From Patescibacteria group bacterium (GTDB taxonomy: Bacteria; Patescibacteriota; Microgenomatia; 2-02-FULL-39-11): a stretch of DNA of 44,116 nucleotides. Below the pieces are notes generated by a model. It saw only the letters and a list, made by a program, of their open reading frames with translations, made no database searches and was not told the DNA's origin. The DNA lies in contig JAMCUI010000001.1 of assembly GCA_023379265.1 (NCBI GenBank), positions 1 through 44,116 on the forward strand, in the 5' to 3' direction. How positions within the stretch are numbered: the first letter of the stretch is position 1; every line of letters starts with the position of its first letter. A program made the translations under genes and the position numbers. This document shows positions 31,239 through 37,133 of the stretch, in pieces.

Positions 31239-31877
31239 TTACTTTCTGCCTTTTCCTTTTATTCCCCTGAAGAAATAGATACTCCCAAGTATCAGAAAAA
31301 CCAATGATGCAATCCAGGTTAAAGGTACTAAAATATTTTGTACAGTATTATTTCCGCCCATCATTCCTGATATATAACCCATCATAGAAAAGTTTGTACT
31401 GTTTCTGGTGTTTCCCCAGCCATTACCCATCATTCCTAATCCCATCATTGGTAAAAAGCCTTCTCCCTGAGTTGGGATTGGGAAAGAGGCGTCACAGCCG
31501 CTCAGACGTTTACCGAGAGATATATGCATCTGTCTATTTCCTTCCTCTCCCATCATCTGTGTCATAATGTTATCCATGCTTTCATGTGCGCTGCCCAGTC
31601 TCTGACCCATAAAATAATCTCCGAGTAGATCAAAATCGCCATCGGTCAGGTTTCTGCAAATCGTCTGTTTTGCCTGAAGTTTGTCAAAAATAGCTTTTCC
31701 CTGCGCTTCTTCCTGGTTAGAAGACGAGTTTGAAGAAGCGGTATTTTTCTGGTATTGATTTTGATCCATCATTCCTTGAGCAAGAGAAGTCCCCGGCAAA
31801 AGTGTTATTAAACCAAGGAGAACACATATTAAAAGTCCAGATTTAATGGCTAAATTAAGCCGTAAGTTATTTTTCAT
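31239..31877 (-). CDS. Exported methionine-rich protein of the CsoR operon
   Basis: The protein has 212 residues; no named family recognised. A signal peptide (basic start, hydrophobic 10-28, SLAQ) is followed by a Ser/Asn/Gln linker, a central helical domain with two Cys (C74, C128) and MDNIMTQMMGEEGNRQMH, then a Met/Gly-rich stretch (MMGLGMM 144-150, MMGYISGMM 165-173) and a C-terminal membrane helix (181-204). Repeated MM and MxxM pairs with His are typical of extracytoplasmic Cu(I)/Ag(I) binding, and the gene is last in the operon downstream of a CsoR-type operator, so copper binding is a reasonable inference. GGAGT lies 6 nt before the ATG. Confidence 0.75.
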   Translation of the reverse strand: MKNNLRLNLAIKSGLLICVLLGLITLLPGTSLAQGMMDQNQYQKNTASSNSSSNQEEAQGKAIFDKLQAKQTICRNLTDGDFDLLGDYFMGQRLGSAHESMDNIMTQMMGEEGNRQMHISLGKRLSGCDASFPIPTQGEGFLPMMGLGMMGNGWGNTRNSTNFSMMGYISGMMGGNNTVQNILVPLTWIASLVFLILGSIYFFRGIKGKGRK

Positions 31878-31915
31878 AAATACTCCTTTTATTTGACTTT
31901 AATAATTAACTTAAA

Positions 31916-32863
31916 TTAGCAACTTGATCCACTATTTACCTTTGGTACAATTTCCTTTGATTGCAATTCCTTATCTATTTGGGCAAAACCTGTGCCACTG
32001 GAGTAATTGGCACCCAGGACCACTTTTGGATCAACTTTATCCCAAGAGATGCCTTTTTGGGTCTTAAAATATAAAGCATTTTCGACATATGTTTGAGGGA
32101 ACCAATACGAATTTAAAACAAGAGCTTTTTTATATATTTCATCCTTGGGCATTTCCTGGGATACTGCCAGTTCCAGAAATCCCAGCATTGCCGCACCGTG
32201 GTTACAGTCAGGAAAATAGGTGCTATTGCCGCAGCAGGGTCGGTATATATTTTGGGAAATTTCTGTGATTTCCTGTTCCTGTTGCGGGGTAAGTTGGATA
32301 AGGTTAAATTTATTAAAAAGTTCTTCACCTGGGATTTTTCCCAGAGTCCAACCTCCGGTTGAAGCAAAATTGCCGACATCATTTTTATACTGCGTGCCCA
32401 TAGGGCCTTTTGCTAATACTGCCGTTTTGTTGGAAATTCCCAGAGGCCAGAGAAGATTGAGTATAAAACTGGCATTCTGAGGAGTCACTGTCAATTTCCC
32501 ATTGTCAGGATTATCAAGGAGTTGCTTTTCATTAGTTGTGAGCGAATTGTTTTGTCCGCTGTAAACCTGGAGTAGTTTATCCTTGTCTATTGCTCCATCC
32601 TTTATCATTTTTATGACCGTATCACCGATGGAAACGCCAAGATCAAGCTTGTCCGGTAATACTTCCTTTGTGACGAGAGCTTGTATCTTTGCCGGATCCG
32701 GAGAGGGAGTAGGTTGTGGTTTGGGAAATATACTTATGCCTGCAATTTGAGTGCGGGCAATAAAGGATGGTATAAGAATAGTAATTAGGATAACCGACAG
32801 TGCTCCGGTCAGAATTCCTAGAAAAAAATTATTCTTTTCTTTAATTTTTCTTCCTACTCTCAT
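31916..32863 (-). CDS. Membrane-anchored protein with CCGN...DCNH motif, unknown function
   Basis: The protein has 315 residues. A basic start and one helix (about 13-36) anchor it. A Pro-rich linker (KPQPTPSPDP) leads to a soluble extracytoplasmic domain. The striking segment is IYRPCCGNSTYFPDCNHGAAML (206-227) with C210, C211, C220 and H222 grouped like a metal or thiol site, and the last residue is C315. I do not recognise the family. GGAGG lies 6 nt before ATG, and the gene overlaps the CcdA-like gene by 23 bp, so translation is coupled. Its place between a CcdA-like protein and a Met-rich protein suggests it is a redox or copper-handling partner; this is inference. Confidence 0.75.
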   Translation of the reverse strand: MRVGRKIKEKNNFFLGILTGALSVILITILIPSFIARTQIAGISIFPKPQPTPSPDPAKIQALVTKEVLPDKLDLGVSIGDTVIKMIKDGAIDKDKLLQVYSGQNNSLTTNEKQLLDNPDNGKLTVTPQNASFILNLLWPLGISNKTAVLAKGPMGTQYKNDVGNFASTGGWTLGKIPGEELFNKFNLIQLTPQQEQEITEISQNIYRPCCGNSTYFPDCNHGAAMLGFLELAVSQEMPKDEIYKKALVLNSYWFPQTYVENALYFKTQKGISWDKVDPKVVLGANYSSGTGFAQIDKELQSKEIVPKVNSGSSC

Positions 32864-33671
32864 TTTTTGCCTCCTTTATAATTATTATAAATAATATTGC
32901 GATAATTGTGATGGTTAAAAGGTCAAAAATAGGATTGCGTAGTCTTGTAGAGATATTAAATATAAAAAGTCTTAGAGAGGTCCCATAGGCGCTATTTTCG
33001 GACATCACAATACGTCCGGTAATAGCAAGATAGGCTATAACAAAGCTTGAGGCAATAAATGTGATGGAGGCAGCAATTTTCAGAGGCTTGTCGATATTTT
33101 TCTTTATTTTGTAAAGAAACTGATTGGTCAGTTTGTCATACAAAAGGGAAAGGAAAAAAAGTGGAAAGACAATTCCCAAGACATAAACGATTGAGACTAT
33201 AAGTGCTGAAAAGAGTGTTGGTGAAAGTGATGATAGAGTGATAGCGGCAAATAGAACTGGGGCACAACAGGAGGAGGTGACGCCGGAAAAAAGACCCAGT
33301 ACAAAAGTGGAAAGCACTGTGGTCTTTTGGGGCATGGTATAGTGGGGTAGAGGAAAAGCAGGAAGCTTCATTTCAAAAAGAGTCATCAATCCTAAAATAA
33401 ACATAAAGAATGCTCCAATAAGATATGTAGTAGTATGGAATTGGTCAAAAATGGAGACGATGACGCGCATGCCAAGGGCAACAGGTATCAGAATACTGCC
33501 AAGTCCTGTTGCAAACACAAGTGTTAGAAGAAGTATTTTTTTCCTGTCCCTAAAAACCGTACCCAGGTATGATGGTAGAAGAAAAGTAATGCAGCAGGGG
33601 GCAAAAAGCGCTACCATGCCGCCAAGAAAAGAAGCTGTAATTGATATACCCAAAAAAAGACCTGAATTCAT
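32841..33671 (-). CDS. CcdA/DsbD-like transmembrane thiol transporter
   Basis: The protein has 276 residues and about six to seven hydrophobic helices. FAPCCITFLLPSYLG (C26, C27) and SGVTSSCCAPVLF (C135, C136) occupy the places of the two cysteines that CcdA/DsbD use to carry electrons across the membrane; here each is a CC pair. GLGSILIPVALGM and VYVLGIVFPLFFLSLLYDKL fit the fold. It should pass reducing power from cytosolic thioredoxin to extracytoplasmic partners. No cytochrome c genes are nearby, so the client is likely one of its operon neighbours. The additional C-terminal helix (FDLLTITIIAILFIIIIK) is unusual. The gene lies 2 bp after the DUF1573 gene. Confidence 0.85.
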   Translation of the reverse strand: MNSGLFLGISITASFLGGMVALFAPCCITFLLPSYLGTVFRDRKKILLLTLVFATGLGSILIPVALGMRVIVSIFDQFHTTTYLIGAFFMFILGLMTLFEMKLPAFPLPHYTMPQKTTVLSTFVLGLFSGVTSSCCAPVLFAAITLSSLSPTLFSALIVSIVYVLGIVFPLFFLSLLYDKLTNQFLYKIKKNIDKPLKIAASITFIASSFVIAYLAITGRIVMSENSAYGTSLRLFIFNISTRLRNPIFDLLTITIIAILFIIIIKEAKNESRKKN

Positions 33672-33673
33672 AT

Positions 33674-34198
33674 TTATTCAACGAACGCTTTAACTGTAAA
33701 TGTAAGATTAGAAGAGGAAGGATCATTTGTCTTTACGTATACATCCCGGCTGATGGTGCCTGAAACAGGCATCAGATACGGTTTGTAAATGACTGAAAGC
33801 GTTGCCTTTTTGCCTGGCGCGACTATTCCTATCCAGGGGTTTTCCGAGTGCATGCCAAATTCCGGGCTTTTGACTCCGTCAATAGTGATTTGTCCGAAGG
33901 TGCACATGCAGGATGATTTGATATCATATAGCTGAAGTGGTTTGTTTCCCTGATTTGTGATGGTAAAGGTGGCTGATTTTTCACTATTTAACTTCATATC
34001 GCCCAGATCTGAAAAATTTGATGAGGTTACCGTTTTGGGTTTATCCGTTTCGCTTGCCGAGTAGGTGACAAGTTTAGTATCGCTGTTTGCACTGTTTGTT
34101 GAATCCCGGGAGGCAAATACAGTAACTAGTATGATAAAGATTAATGTTGTGACTCCAACGCTAATAAATATTATTTTTTCGGTTCCGATCGATTTCAT
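33674..34198 (-). CDS. DUF1573-family membrane-anchored protein
   Basis: The protein has 174 residues with an N-terminal membrane helix (8-28), a polar linker, and an Ig-like DUF1573 domain (LNSEKSATFTITNQGNKPLQL, SSCMCTFGQI with C97/C99, IVAPGKKATLSVIYKP, VYVKTNDPSSSNLTFTVKAF). The CxC-type pair in this place is a hallmark of DUF1573. The domain faces outside the cell. It is the first gene of the operon behind the CsoR-type operator. The start is ATG 34198; an in-frame TTG at 34243 would run through the operator and is rejected. Function unknown; redox or copper-related by context. Confidence 0.83.
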   Translation of the reverse strand: MKSIGTEKIIFISVGVTTLIFIILVTVFASRDSTNSANSDTKLVTYSASETDKPKTVTSSNFSDLGDMKLNSEKSATFTITNQGNKPLQLYDIKSSCMCTFGQITIDGVKSPEFGMHSENPWIGIVAPGKKATLSVIYKPYLMPVSGTISRDVYVKTNDPSSSNLTFTVKAFVE

Positions 34199-34210
34199 AA
34201 AGTATAGAAC

Positions 34211-34228
34211 ATCCCCTATGGGGGGTAT
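34211..34228. promoter_or_regulatory. CsoR-type operator of the DUF1573-ccdA operon
   Basis: ATCCCCTATGGGGGGTAT; on the minus strand ATACCCCCCATAGGGGAT. It is a G/C-run dyad flanked by AT, as recognised by CsoR/RcnR-family repressors, and matches the site in front of csoR. It covers the predicted transcription start. Confidence 0.75.
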
Positions 34229-34234
34229 AGGGAT

Positions 34235-34263
34235 ACAATACAATTACACGGGTTAGTTGTCAA
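34235..34263 (-). promoter_or_regulatory. Promoter of the DUF1573-ccdA operon
   Basis: TTGACA (34263-34258), a 17-bp spacer, TATTGT (34240-34235) on the minus strand. The operator begins 6 bp downstream. Confidence 0.65.
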
Positions 34264-34373
34264 GAGTGAACAAAATATATTCTATCTTTTTTTGGCTATA
34301 TTGCATGTATTAAGAGAAAGAAGTATAGGGTTCAAAATGAAAAATGGATATTAAATATAAGGTTTGAATTTGT

Positions 34374-34643
34374 TTATTGATTCTTTTTGAGGATTGCCAT
34401 GATTTCATCAATTACTTCTTTAGAATTGCCCTTTTTTATGGCATCAACGACACAAGTGTTTAGATGATTATTTAACACTAACGTGTCGATTCCCTTTAGT
34501 GCCGCTTCAACTGCCTGAGATTGGTGCAAGACATCAATACAGTAGGTATCGTTTTCCACCATTTTGCGTACCTTTTTAAGATGTCCTTCTGCAATCTTAA
34601 GCCTTCGGACGATTTGATCTTTCTGGGTTTTTTTCTCTACCAT
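34374..34643 (-). CDS. csoR: Copper-sensing repressor, CsoR family
   Basis: The protein has 89 residues. The all-helical fold of the CsoR/RcnR family is evident (RRLKIAEGHLKKVRKMVEND, HQSQAVEAALKGIDTLVLNNHL). The Cu(I) ligand set Cys-His-Cys is present as C35, H60 and C64 in TYCIDVL and NNHLNTCV, the spacing expected for copper sensors and not for nickel (RcnR) or formaldehyde (FrmR) types. Apo-protein should bind the GC-run dyads and release them on copper binding. It has its own promoter and operator, so it is autoregulated, and the target operon lies immediately downstream. Confidence 0.93.
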   Translation of the reverse strand: MVEKKTQKDQIVRRLKIAEGHLKKVRKMVENDTYCIDVLHQSQAVEAALKGIDTLVLNNHLNTCVVDAIKKGNSKEVIDEIMAILKKNQ

Positions 34644-34646
34644 AAT

Positions 34647-34664
34647 ATCCCCCTACCGGGGTAT
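34647..34664. promoter_or_regulatory. CsoR-type operator of csoR
   Basis: ATCCCCCTACCGGGGTAT; on the minus strand ATACCCCGGTAGGGGGAT. It shares ATACCCC...GGGGAT with the second site 430 bp away. It lies between the -10 box and the start codon, at the transcription start. Confidence 0.78.
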
Positions 34665-34668
34665 CAGA

Positions 34669-34697
34669 ATTATAAAGTCTTAATTGGTATAAGTCAA
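34669..34697 (-). promoter_or_regulatory. Promoter of csoR
   Basis: TTGACT (34697-34692), a 17-bp spacer, TATAAT (34674-34669) on the minus strand; the operator begins 4 bp downstream. Confidence 0.75.
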
Positions 34698-34741: not shown

Positions 34742-35047
34742 ATGAGTTATACTATCTGGCTTTCCTTTTTTGTTTTTGTTCCGATTATTATTCTTTGGAT
34801 TTGGCGTTTCAGACTCCTCTGGCATTACCGGAGAACTTTAGCTTATGCAATGTTTTTTGCTCTTGTTGTCTCCATCCCGTGGGATTATTTTGCCATAAAA
34901 AATCATATATGGTATTTCCCAAAAGAAGGGAATTTGGGCATATTAGTTTATGGGCTGCCCTTTGAAGAATTTATATTTATGGCGAGTGTTACTCTGCTTT
35001 TGGGCAGTATTGTAATTATTATGAAATACCGTACGCGGAGAGGCTGA
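34742..35047 (+). CDS. Lycopene cyclase-domain protein, first half (CrtYc-like)
   Basis: The protein has 101 residues and three membrane helices. WRFRLLWHYRRTL, SIPWDYFAIKNHIWYF and GLPFEEFIFMASVTLLLG (PFEE at 73-76) are the hallmarks of the lycopene cyclase domain of heterodimeric CrtYc/CrtYd enzymes in actinobacteria and archaea. The second half starts 1 nt after its stop. Together they could cyclise lycopene or a related polyene, but no phytoene synthase or desaturase is in the window, so the substrate might come from elsewhere or differ. Confidence 0.8.
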   Translation: MSYTIWLSFFVFVPIIILWIWRFRLLWHYRRTLAYAMFFALVVSIPWDYFAIKNHIWYFPKEGNLGILVYGLPFEEFIFMASVTLLLGSIVIIMKYRTRRG

Positions 35048-35048
35048 A

Positions 35049-35462
35049 ATGGGAAATAATTTTGCATATCTAGTCTCAATATTATTATTTGCCGGCATTC
35101 CCGTGACTCTCGAGTTCATACTGGGTTTCCGGCTTTTAAAACCTTTCATGGTAATGTCGGTAAAAATGATTTTCATTTCACTTTTTCTTGTACCCATTTG
35201 GGATGGAGTAGCAATTGCGCTTGGTGCCTGGAAATTTTCGCCGGAAAGAAATTTGAACATTATCATCTTGGGAGACCCGCTTGAAACATATATATGGATG
35301 GTTTTTATTGTTTTAGCAATTGCTTTTTCTATTTACACCTGGACATATTATGAGGATAAGGGATTGCCTATTATAGAAACCAGTTTCTATGACGTACTCC
35401 ACCAGACTTATGCTTTTTGGAAAAAAGAGATAAAACCATCCTTAAAACGGTTAAAGAAGTAA
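35049..35462 (+). CDS. Lycopene cyclase-domain protein, second half (CrtYd-like)
   Basis: The protein has 137 residues and about three to four helices. IPVTLEFILGFRLL, LVPIWDGVAIALGAWKFSPERNLNIIILGDPLETYIWM match the second cyclase domain. The acidic motif reads DPLET instead of PxEE (only one Glu, E79), so this half has a weaker active-site signature than the first half. The C-terminal TFYDVLHQ-like region and basic tail are cytosolic. It forms an operon with the preceding gene. Confidence 0.75.
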   Translation: MGNNFAYLVSILLFAGIPVTLEFILGFRLLKPFMVMSVKMIFISLFLVPIWDGVAIALGAWKFSPERNLNIIILGDPLETYIWMVFIVLAIAFSIYTWTYYEDKGLPIIETSFYDVLHQTYAFWKKEIKPSLKRLKK

Positions 35463-35705: not shown

Positions 35706-36029
35706 ATGGCAGAAGTAAAAGTGACCGATGATACCTTTGACAGCGAAGTAGTGAAATCTGACATTCCGGTTCTGGTGGATTTTTGGGCAGTATGGTGCGG
35801 GCCATGTCAGATGCAAAATCCCATTTTGGAGGAAGTGGCAAAAGAGTTTGAAGGAAAAGTAAAAATTGCCAAACTTAATGTGGACGAAAACCCCAAGACA
35901 GCCGCCAAATATGGCATTATGAGCATACCTACTCTTATGCTTTTCAAAGGCGGTACAAGCGTCAAGCAGATGATCGGGGTACAGAGTAAGGAGACGCTTG
36001 CCGGAGAGTTCAAGAAAGTTGTCAATTAG
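35706..36029 (+). CDS. trxA: Thioredoxin
   Basis: The protein has 107 residues. DFWAVWCGPCQMQNPIL contains the redox site WCGPC (C31, C34). YGIMSIPTLMLFKGG holds the cis-Pro. It reduces protein disulfides in the cytosol using electrons from thioredoxin reductase, and is the natural donor for the CcdA-like protein encoded 2 kb away. GAAAGGAG with a 7-nt spacer precedes the ATG, a clear Shine-Dalgarno. A terminator follows before trxB. Confidence 0.97.
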   Translation: MAEVKVTDDTFDSEVVKSDIPVLVDFWAVWCGPCQMQNPILEEVAKEFEGKVKIAKLNVDENPKTAAKYGIMSIPTLMLFKGGTSVKQMIGVQSKETLAGEFKKVVN

Positions 36030-36185: not shown

Positions 36186-37133
36186 ATGTATGACGTAATT
36201 ATTCTTGGCTCCGGGCCTGCTGGTCTCACCGCTGGAATTTATTCCGTCCGGGCAGGTTATAAGACTCTCATTGTAGCTGGTACCAAATGGGGTGGACAAC
36301 TGATGTTGACCACGCTTGTGGAGAATTTCCCAGGATTTGTCGAAGGGATACAAGGGCCGGAGTTAATGATGAACATGCGTAAACAGGTAGAAAGGCTTGG
36401 AGTAGAATTTCTGAACACTGATTTTGAACAGGCAGATTTTTCCTCAAGGCCTTTTAAGATAAAAGCCGAAGGAAAAATTCATGAGACAAAATCCGTAATT
36501 GTTGCTACAGGTGCTGATTCCCTATGGCTTAATATTCCAGGAGAAATGCAGCTGCGAGGTAAAGGTGTCTCTACCTGCGCGGTTTGTGACGCATTTTTCT
36601 TCAGGGATAAGAATACTGTAGTAGTCGGGGGAGGAGATAGCGCCATGGAAGAAGCGCTGGTATTGGCAAAAGTGGCAAAAACAGTAACTATAGTGCATAG
36701 AAGAGACGGTTTCCGGGCTTCAGAGGCGATGCAAAAAAGAGTATTTTCTGAACCTAAAATTAAAGTACTTTGGAATAAGGCGGTTACAAAGTATATGGGT
36801 AGTGATCATGTGACTGGAGTGGGATTGAAAGATCTAAAAACCGGTAAGGAAGAGGAATTTGCTACAGACGGTGTATTTATTGCCATAGGGCATAAACCTA
36901 ATACTGATAAATTAAAAGGGATAGAACTGGATGCAAAAGGCTATATAGTGAAAAAGGAAATAAAGGAGAAGGGGCTTATGAAATATCGTAGTGCCACTAG
37001 CGTACCGGGTGTTTTTGTAGGTGGGGATGTACATGATTATCGCTATAAACAGGCAATAACCGCTTCAGCTTTCGGATGTATGGCCGCCTTGGACGTGGAT
37101 AAGTGGATGGAAGAGAATGAGAAGTCCTCATAA
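36186..37133 (+). CDS. trxB: Thioredoxin reductase
   Basis: The protein has 315 residues. FAD-binding LGSGPAGLTAGIYS (8-21), redox pair CAVC (C131, C134; usually CATC, followed here by DAFFFRDK), NADPH-binding VVGGGDSAMEEALVLAK and HRRDGFRASE, and the C-terminal GVFVGGDVHDYRYKQAITASAFG. HRR with the downstream Arg indicates NADPH use. It reduces thioredoxin encoded just upstream. GGAGG lies 10 nt before the ATG. A second, more divergent reductase lies at 43.1 kb. Confidence 0.95.
   Translation: MYDVIILGSGPAGLTAGIYSVRAGYKTLIVAGTKWGGQLMLTTLVENFPGFVEGIQGPELMMNMRKQVERLGVEFLNTDFEQADFSSRPFKIKAEGKIHETKSVIVATGADSLWLNIPGEMQLRGKGVSTCAVCDAFFFRDKNTVVVGGGDSAMEEALVLAKVAKTVTIVHRRDGFRASEAMQKRVFSEPKIKVLWNKAVTKYMGSDHVTGVGLKDLKTGKEEEFATDGVFIAIGHKPNTDKLKGIELDAKGYIVKKEIKEKGLMKYRSATSVPGVFVGGDVHDYRYKQAITASAFGCMAALDVDKWMEENEKSS

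Follow-up and report, generated by a model that had tools for sequence, protein, structure and literature searches.

A predicted CsoR-controlled copper regulon with extracytoplasmic thiol and Met-rich proteins in a Patescibacteria group bacterium

Background

The closest described counterparts of the system reported here are the CsoR-copZA regulons (Streptomyces, Geobacillus and Mycobacterium CsoR), characterised by the CsoR fold with its Cu(I) ligands, G-tract pseudopalindromic operators at promoters and a P1B ATPase; the Streptomyces CsoR consensus is ATATACCCCTNAGGGGTATAT (PMC3902906). In the Scs system, the membrane thiol-electron carrier ScsB keeps the Cu(I)-binding extracytoplasmic ScsC reduced, which leads to copper tolerance (PMC8900818). 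CcmH is part of a thiol pathway fed via DsbD/CcdA in the known systems, and its second cysteine is thought to be the nucleophile (PMC3884852). Here we analysed by computation a 44,116-nucleotide stretch ("the window") of a Patescibacteria group bacterium, a member of the candidate phyla radiation (CPR), in which a csoR gene lies beside a four-gene operon encoding, in this order, a DUF1573 protein, a CcdA-like carrier, a protein termed CCGN and a Met-rich protein. The window corresponds to contig C1 of a genome that totals 1.53 Mb in 20 contigs, with an estimated completeness of 93.7%. On copper in Patescibacteria via CsoR we found no paper beyond incidental mentions, and no title or abstract was found that links DUF1573 to copper.

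Results and discussion

The reading we favour, and hold to be likely, is a CsoR-controlled copper-tolerance regulon in which an ATPase export arm is combined with an extracytoplasmic thiol/Met arm kept reduced via the CcdA-like protein. The features of the window that bear on it are the following.

34669-34697, minus strand: promoter-like site of csoR, TTGACT-17-TATAAT
34647-34664, upstream of csoR: predicted CsoR operator 1, ATCCCCCTACCGGGGTAT; similar operators lie 5' of csoR in many relatives
34374-34643, minus strand: csoR, Cu(I)-type CsoR/DUF156 repressor; ligand columns seen in 19 homologues
34235-34263, minus strand: promoter-like site of the operon, TTGACA-17-TATTGT
34211-34228, upstream of the four-gene operon: predicted CsoR operator 2, ATCCCCTATGGGGGGTAT; same placement before DUF1573 in loci L057 and L072
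33674-34198 (ATG at 34198), minus strand: DUF1573 protein with an N-terminal membrane anchor (hydrophobic N-terminus)
32841-33671, minus strand: CcdA-like membrane carrier with APCC (C26, C27) and CCAP (C135, C136), from a family hidden Markov model (HMM) and conserved Cys/Pro columns
31916-32863, minus strand: CCGN protein with one N-terminal transmembrane (TM) anchor, an extracytoplasmic helical domain, RPCCGNSTxFPDCNHG and a C-terminal Cys
31239-31877, minus strand: Met/His-rich exported protein with a C-terminal TM segment (alignments A2 and A4, phylum search)

The repressor has the DUF156/Trns_repr_metal fold (PF02583, 5e-26, 91 bits), and alignment with the solved CsoRs 4m1p and 2hh7 located the full Cu(I) ligand set, C35, H60 and C64, together with the second-shell residues Y34 and E80. 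The original prediction had named this ligand set, two 18-bp dyads downstream of promoters and the four operon genes, and all of these were confirmed: operator 2 begins 6 bp past the -10 TATTGT, operator 1 begins 4 bp past the -10 TATAAT, and the four genes stand together on the minus strand.

Using pattern searches in which exact matches were counted and expected numbers were a simple arithmetic estimate, we found exactly two matches to ATCCCCN5GGGGTAT in the genome, both of them the window 18-mers (~0.05 expected), and exactly one match to ATMCCCN5GGGKAT, the 17-bp form common in relatives (~0.4 expected). The sole 17-mer, ATCCCCCCTGGGGGGAT, lies on contig C7 (179362-179378), 6 bp past a TATAAT, and a P1B ATPase gene starts 33 bp downstream of the 17-mer. 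The dyad originally proposed for a genome scan would miss the ATPase site because the spacing there is one base shorter. Every one of the three sites in the genome is at copper-type genes. By its predicted operator the unlinked ATPase is tied to the CsoR of the window, which is new with this analysis. Like the operators of known CsoR regulons, the sites are G-tract pseudopalindromes at regulated promoters; unlike them, each window site has one ATC arm, in place of TAC, and one GTA-type arm. The Streptomyces consensus resembles the operators of many of the relatives examined, whose loci held 81 operator-like sites versus 5.6 in shuffles (overlapping patterns, and some loci present in two collections, were counted twice); a csoR, DUF1573 or ATPase gene follows immediately after many of these sites. 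We infer that CsoR binds these operators and that copper induces the genes behind them.

Searching with PF00122 yielded five P-type ATPases in the genome, only one of which has a metal CPx motif. This P1B ATPase on contig C7 comprises 731 aa, carries two heavy-metal-binding domains in addition to its CPH motif, and scores above the cut-offs of TIGR01511 and TIGR01525. The statement that no copper ATPase is present is therefore true of the window locus and was ruled out for the genome, and the idea of a copper response that does without ATPase-driven efflux is not supported: the C7 ATPase has a matching operator of its own, and in relatives CopA is encoded within the operon itself. In locus L183, from a genome of the same family, the operator, csoR, copA (CPC), DUF1573, ccdA and CCGN form one operon, and L185, also of that family, has the same order plus a cupredoxin-like gene (PF13473, 12481-12840) between csoR and copA. 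In the source genome the parts of this operon are split into three units, the ATPase having been moved or replaced. Next gene but one to the C7 ATPase is a 594-aa DsbD_TM-redoxin-thioredoxin fusion (L084, 9196-10980), possibly a second extracytoplasmic electron carrier.

The CCGN and Met-rich proteins had been described as matching no recognised family. Neither gave a match above cut-off in Pfam, NCBIfam or PHROGs or, by sequence, a convincing PDB chain, and each proved to represent a genuine conserved family with links to copper genes. Across 69 CCGN sequences R208, P209, C210, C211, N213, F217, P218, D219, C220, N221, H222 and G223 are invariant and the C-terminal Cys nearly so; the motif is also invariant in a 28-sequence alignment.

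A scan of genome contigs listed at least 571 CCGN loci, the best 80 being almost all CPR, and the closest named loci among the matches listed were from Gottesmanbacteria and Roizmanbacteria. We took up the proposed CPR search and csoR co-occurrence in 380 Patescibacteria genomes, with tallies counted by hand from lists and Fisher p values that ignore relatedness. CCGN was matched in 35 genomes; CsoR is present in 31/35 of these versus 197/345 others (p 1e-4), and the Met-rich protein, for matches below 1e-18, in 17/35 versus 17/345 (p 3e-11). Within 8 kb of CCGN in 75 named loci we counted DUF1573 in 55, a P1B ATPase in 52, CcdA in 46, DUF5676 in 24 and the Met-rich family in 16 (some of the latter being short C-terminal tails only). 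In many related genomes the CCGN family thus accompanies copper pumps, suggesting that it is a component of copper defence. The DUF5676 protein, with two TM segments, recurs at 13 CCGN copper loci (e.g. L075, 2952-3227).

Gene fusions join CCGN to a P1B ATPase (L065) and to rhodanese (L050 and L056, the Pfam match having been run on L056 only), and a CcdA-like protein to a CPH ATPase (L109). Where long CCGN proteins are extended at the N-terminus, rhodanese and ATPase were the only clear domains found. Outside CPR, plasmids of Burkholderia and Paraburkholderia encode homologues of 36-41% identity, in the neighbourhood of genes for metal ATPases, CcdA and a heavy-metal regulator (cueR or another), with TlpA also in the Burkholderia context. 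The plasmid homologues have twin-arginine-like RRRF/RRDF N-termini (L199, 8872-9822; L200, 8851-9768), a hint that the protein is exported after folding and possibly with metal bound. From its sequences, we describe CCGN as a large, previously undescribed cysteine-rich family and a conserved partner of copper ATPases, which is new here. Only tentatively would we go further and regard it as an extracytoplasmic Cu(I)-handling thiol family with a non-thioredoxin CCGN..DCNH site and CcdA-like recharge, which regularly partners copper ATPases throughout Patescibacteria and moved to or from proteobacterial plasmids.

The AlphaFold2 model of CCGN (predicted local distance difference test, pLDDT, 92) places helices 193-203, 221-235 and 240-254 around the Cys loop. 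Foldseek against the PDB gave no match at E <= 0.001. The N-terminal domain of CcmH, 2kw0, was a short, weak match (63 columns, root-mean-square deviation 2.7, template modelling score 0.58 by target; aligned model residues not reported), the only one that we took as plausible, on account of an apparently matching topology with a predicted order of helix, Cys-containing loop, helix, helix. Profile alignment independently paired RPCCGN..PDCN of CCGN with RCPxCQN..ADSN of CcmH (PF03918), C211 aligning with the second CcmH cysteine, at an hhalign score of 26.5 versus a maximum of 25.0 in 200 column shuffles; the similarity is near the noise limit. Unlike CcmH, CCGN has CC instead of CxxC, a much larger domain and an extra C-terminal Cys, and no ccm genes were annotated or seen near CCGN.

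Several of our results weigh against the regulon and the part given to CCGN in it. The Foldseek match to 2kw0 had an E-value of 6.9 and a probability of 0.20, the CcmH CxxC is not conserved, and DUF1573, an unrelated control, scored 26.9 (E 0.012) in hhalign versus 26.5 (E 0.0017) for CcmH. A direct Pfam match is lacking for the CcdA-like protein, and the assembly is incomplete. CsoR lies within 8 kb in only 28/75 CCGN loci; some loci carry instead a sensor kinase with a response regulator, or an ArsR-like gene (identified by eye), therefore the regulator varies as the copper context stays. As to CcmH, RPCC stands in place of LRCxxC in 69/69 CCGN sequences and the control family scores alike; membership was thus ruled out and the similarity is kept as a lead. 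In the reading we favour, CCGN would probably be either distantly related to CcmH, a non-thioredoxin thiol reductase, or its structural analogue.

Three further proteins are encoded in the operon. The DUF1573 protein (PF07610, 3e-12, 46.8 bits versus a gathering cut-off of 26.1) has the family-invariant residues C97-x-C99-T and M116. The Met-rich family conserves C74, M90, H98, M101, H118 and C128, its structure model having a pLDDT of 70, and these Met, His and Cys residues, like the C-x-C-T and Met of DUF1573, are plausible Cu(I) ligands. The CcdA-like protein consists of a 276-aa membrane core only, with conserved Cys beside Pro in each half (P25-C26-C27 and C135-C136-A-P138), and its family HMM matches the PF02683 (DsbD_TM) protein encoded elsewhere in the genome (3.9e-13, one-sequence search space). 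Two genes near the locus are possible sources of its electrons:

35706-36029, plus strand: thioredoxin (PF00085, 3.7e-32), a possible cytosolic electron source; the linkage is not conserved
36186-37133, plus strand: thioredoxin reductase-like protein with CAVC (PF07992, 7e-49), a possible electron source

In the proposed mechanism, a rise in Cu(I) would cause CsoR to leave its three operators, de-repressing csoR, the DUF1573-ccdA-CCGN-Met-rich operon and the unlinked ATPase, which would export copper. The task of the exported DUF1573, CCGN and Met-rich proteins would be to capture Cu(I) outside the membrane or to restore thiols damaged by copper, and the CcdA-like protein would keep their cysteines reduced with electrons from the cytosolic thioredoxin system. 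We infer both the Cu(I) binding and the electron path, which would run from thioredoxin through the CcdA-like protein to CCGN or DUF1573. CsoR control, a thiol/Met-based response outside the membrane and a CcdA-type carrier, all foreseen in the original prediction, are thus supported at the level of sequence. The regulon differs from CsoR-copZA in its additional DUF1573, CcdA-like, CCGN and Met-rich exported proteins, and a separate CopZ gene was not identified in the loci examined. Although the working principle resembles that of Scs, we do not file the module there because the proteins differ: ScsB is a three-domain carrier, two of its domains being periplasmic, versus the bare CcdA-like core, ScsC is a CXXC thioredoxin-fold protein versus the non-thioredoxin CCGN, and no ScsC-type protein is among the four operon genes.

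The module might serve soft metals or thiol stress more broadly (silver, mercury, persulfide), with copper as one inducer among several. The CPH-type ATPases and rhodanese fusions would suit this, as would the DsrE genes near one Burkholderia-group homologue, with merA/merB ~8 kb from it, and, in the source genome, a second DUF156 protein that adjoins DsrE and a paralogue of the Met-rich protein. The complete set of Cu(I) ligands in the window CsoR, the match of the ATPase to copper-type models and the cueR accompanying the Burkholderia contaminans homologue speak against it, and we consider it unlikely. The second DUF156 repressor lacks the His and the second Cys and adjoins a DsrE-like gene and the Met-rich paralogue, which has a SHOCT tail (L077, 9654-11069, equal to C9, 104653-106068); this locus is possibly of the sulfur type, CstR-like.

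CcdA is common to cytochrome and oxidase maturation, and CcdA, DUF1573 and CCGN could load copper into an exported enzyme, as in the CcdA/TlpA/Sco or Ccm pathways. The weak resemblance of CCGN to CcmH, the cupredoxin in the L185 operon and the SCO and TlpA genes near a Burkholderia homologue agree with such maturation. Yet no COX1 or Cu-oxidase_3 gene was found in the source genome (93.7% complete), making it less likely that the module mainly serves to metallate enzymes, and the module is tied to a sensor of copper excess and to efflux ATPases; we regard this explanation as rather improbable. That a general disulfide-repair operon lies near csoR by chance, as could be argued from CcdA-like carriers feeding many reductive pathways and from the thioredoxin and thioredoxin reductase genes 2 kb away, is very improbable given the operators directly before the operon in the window, L057 and L072, the repeated ATPase linkage and fusions, and the excess of CsoR among CCGN genomes.

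Elsewhere in the window, two short membrane open reading frames (34742-35462) match halves of lycopene cyclase (PF18916; the second falls short of the cut-off), which suggests carotenoid genes in this CPR genome.

Conclusions

The CsoR-controlled copper-tolerance regulon that we favour would assign functions that can be tested to two protein families so far uncharacterised, of which one is found at hundreds of loci, mostly in CPR. A dedicated copper response would then be retained even where the genome is very small, and the regulon indicates a thiol-recharge arm beside copper export, for which the culturable Burkholderia-group relatives could serve for testing.

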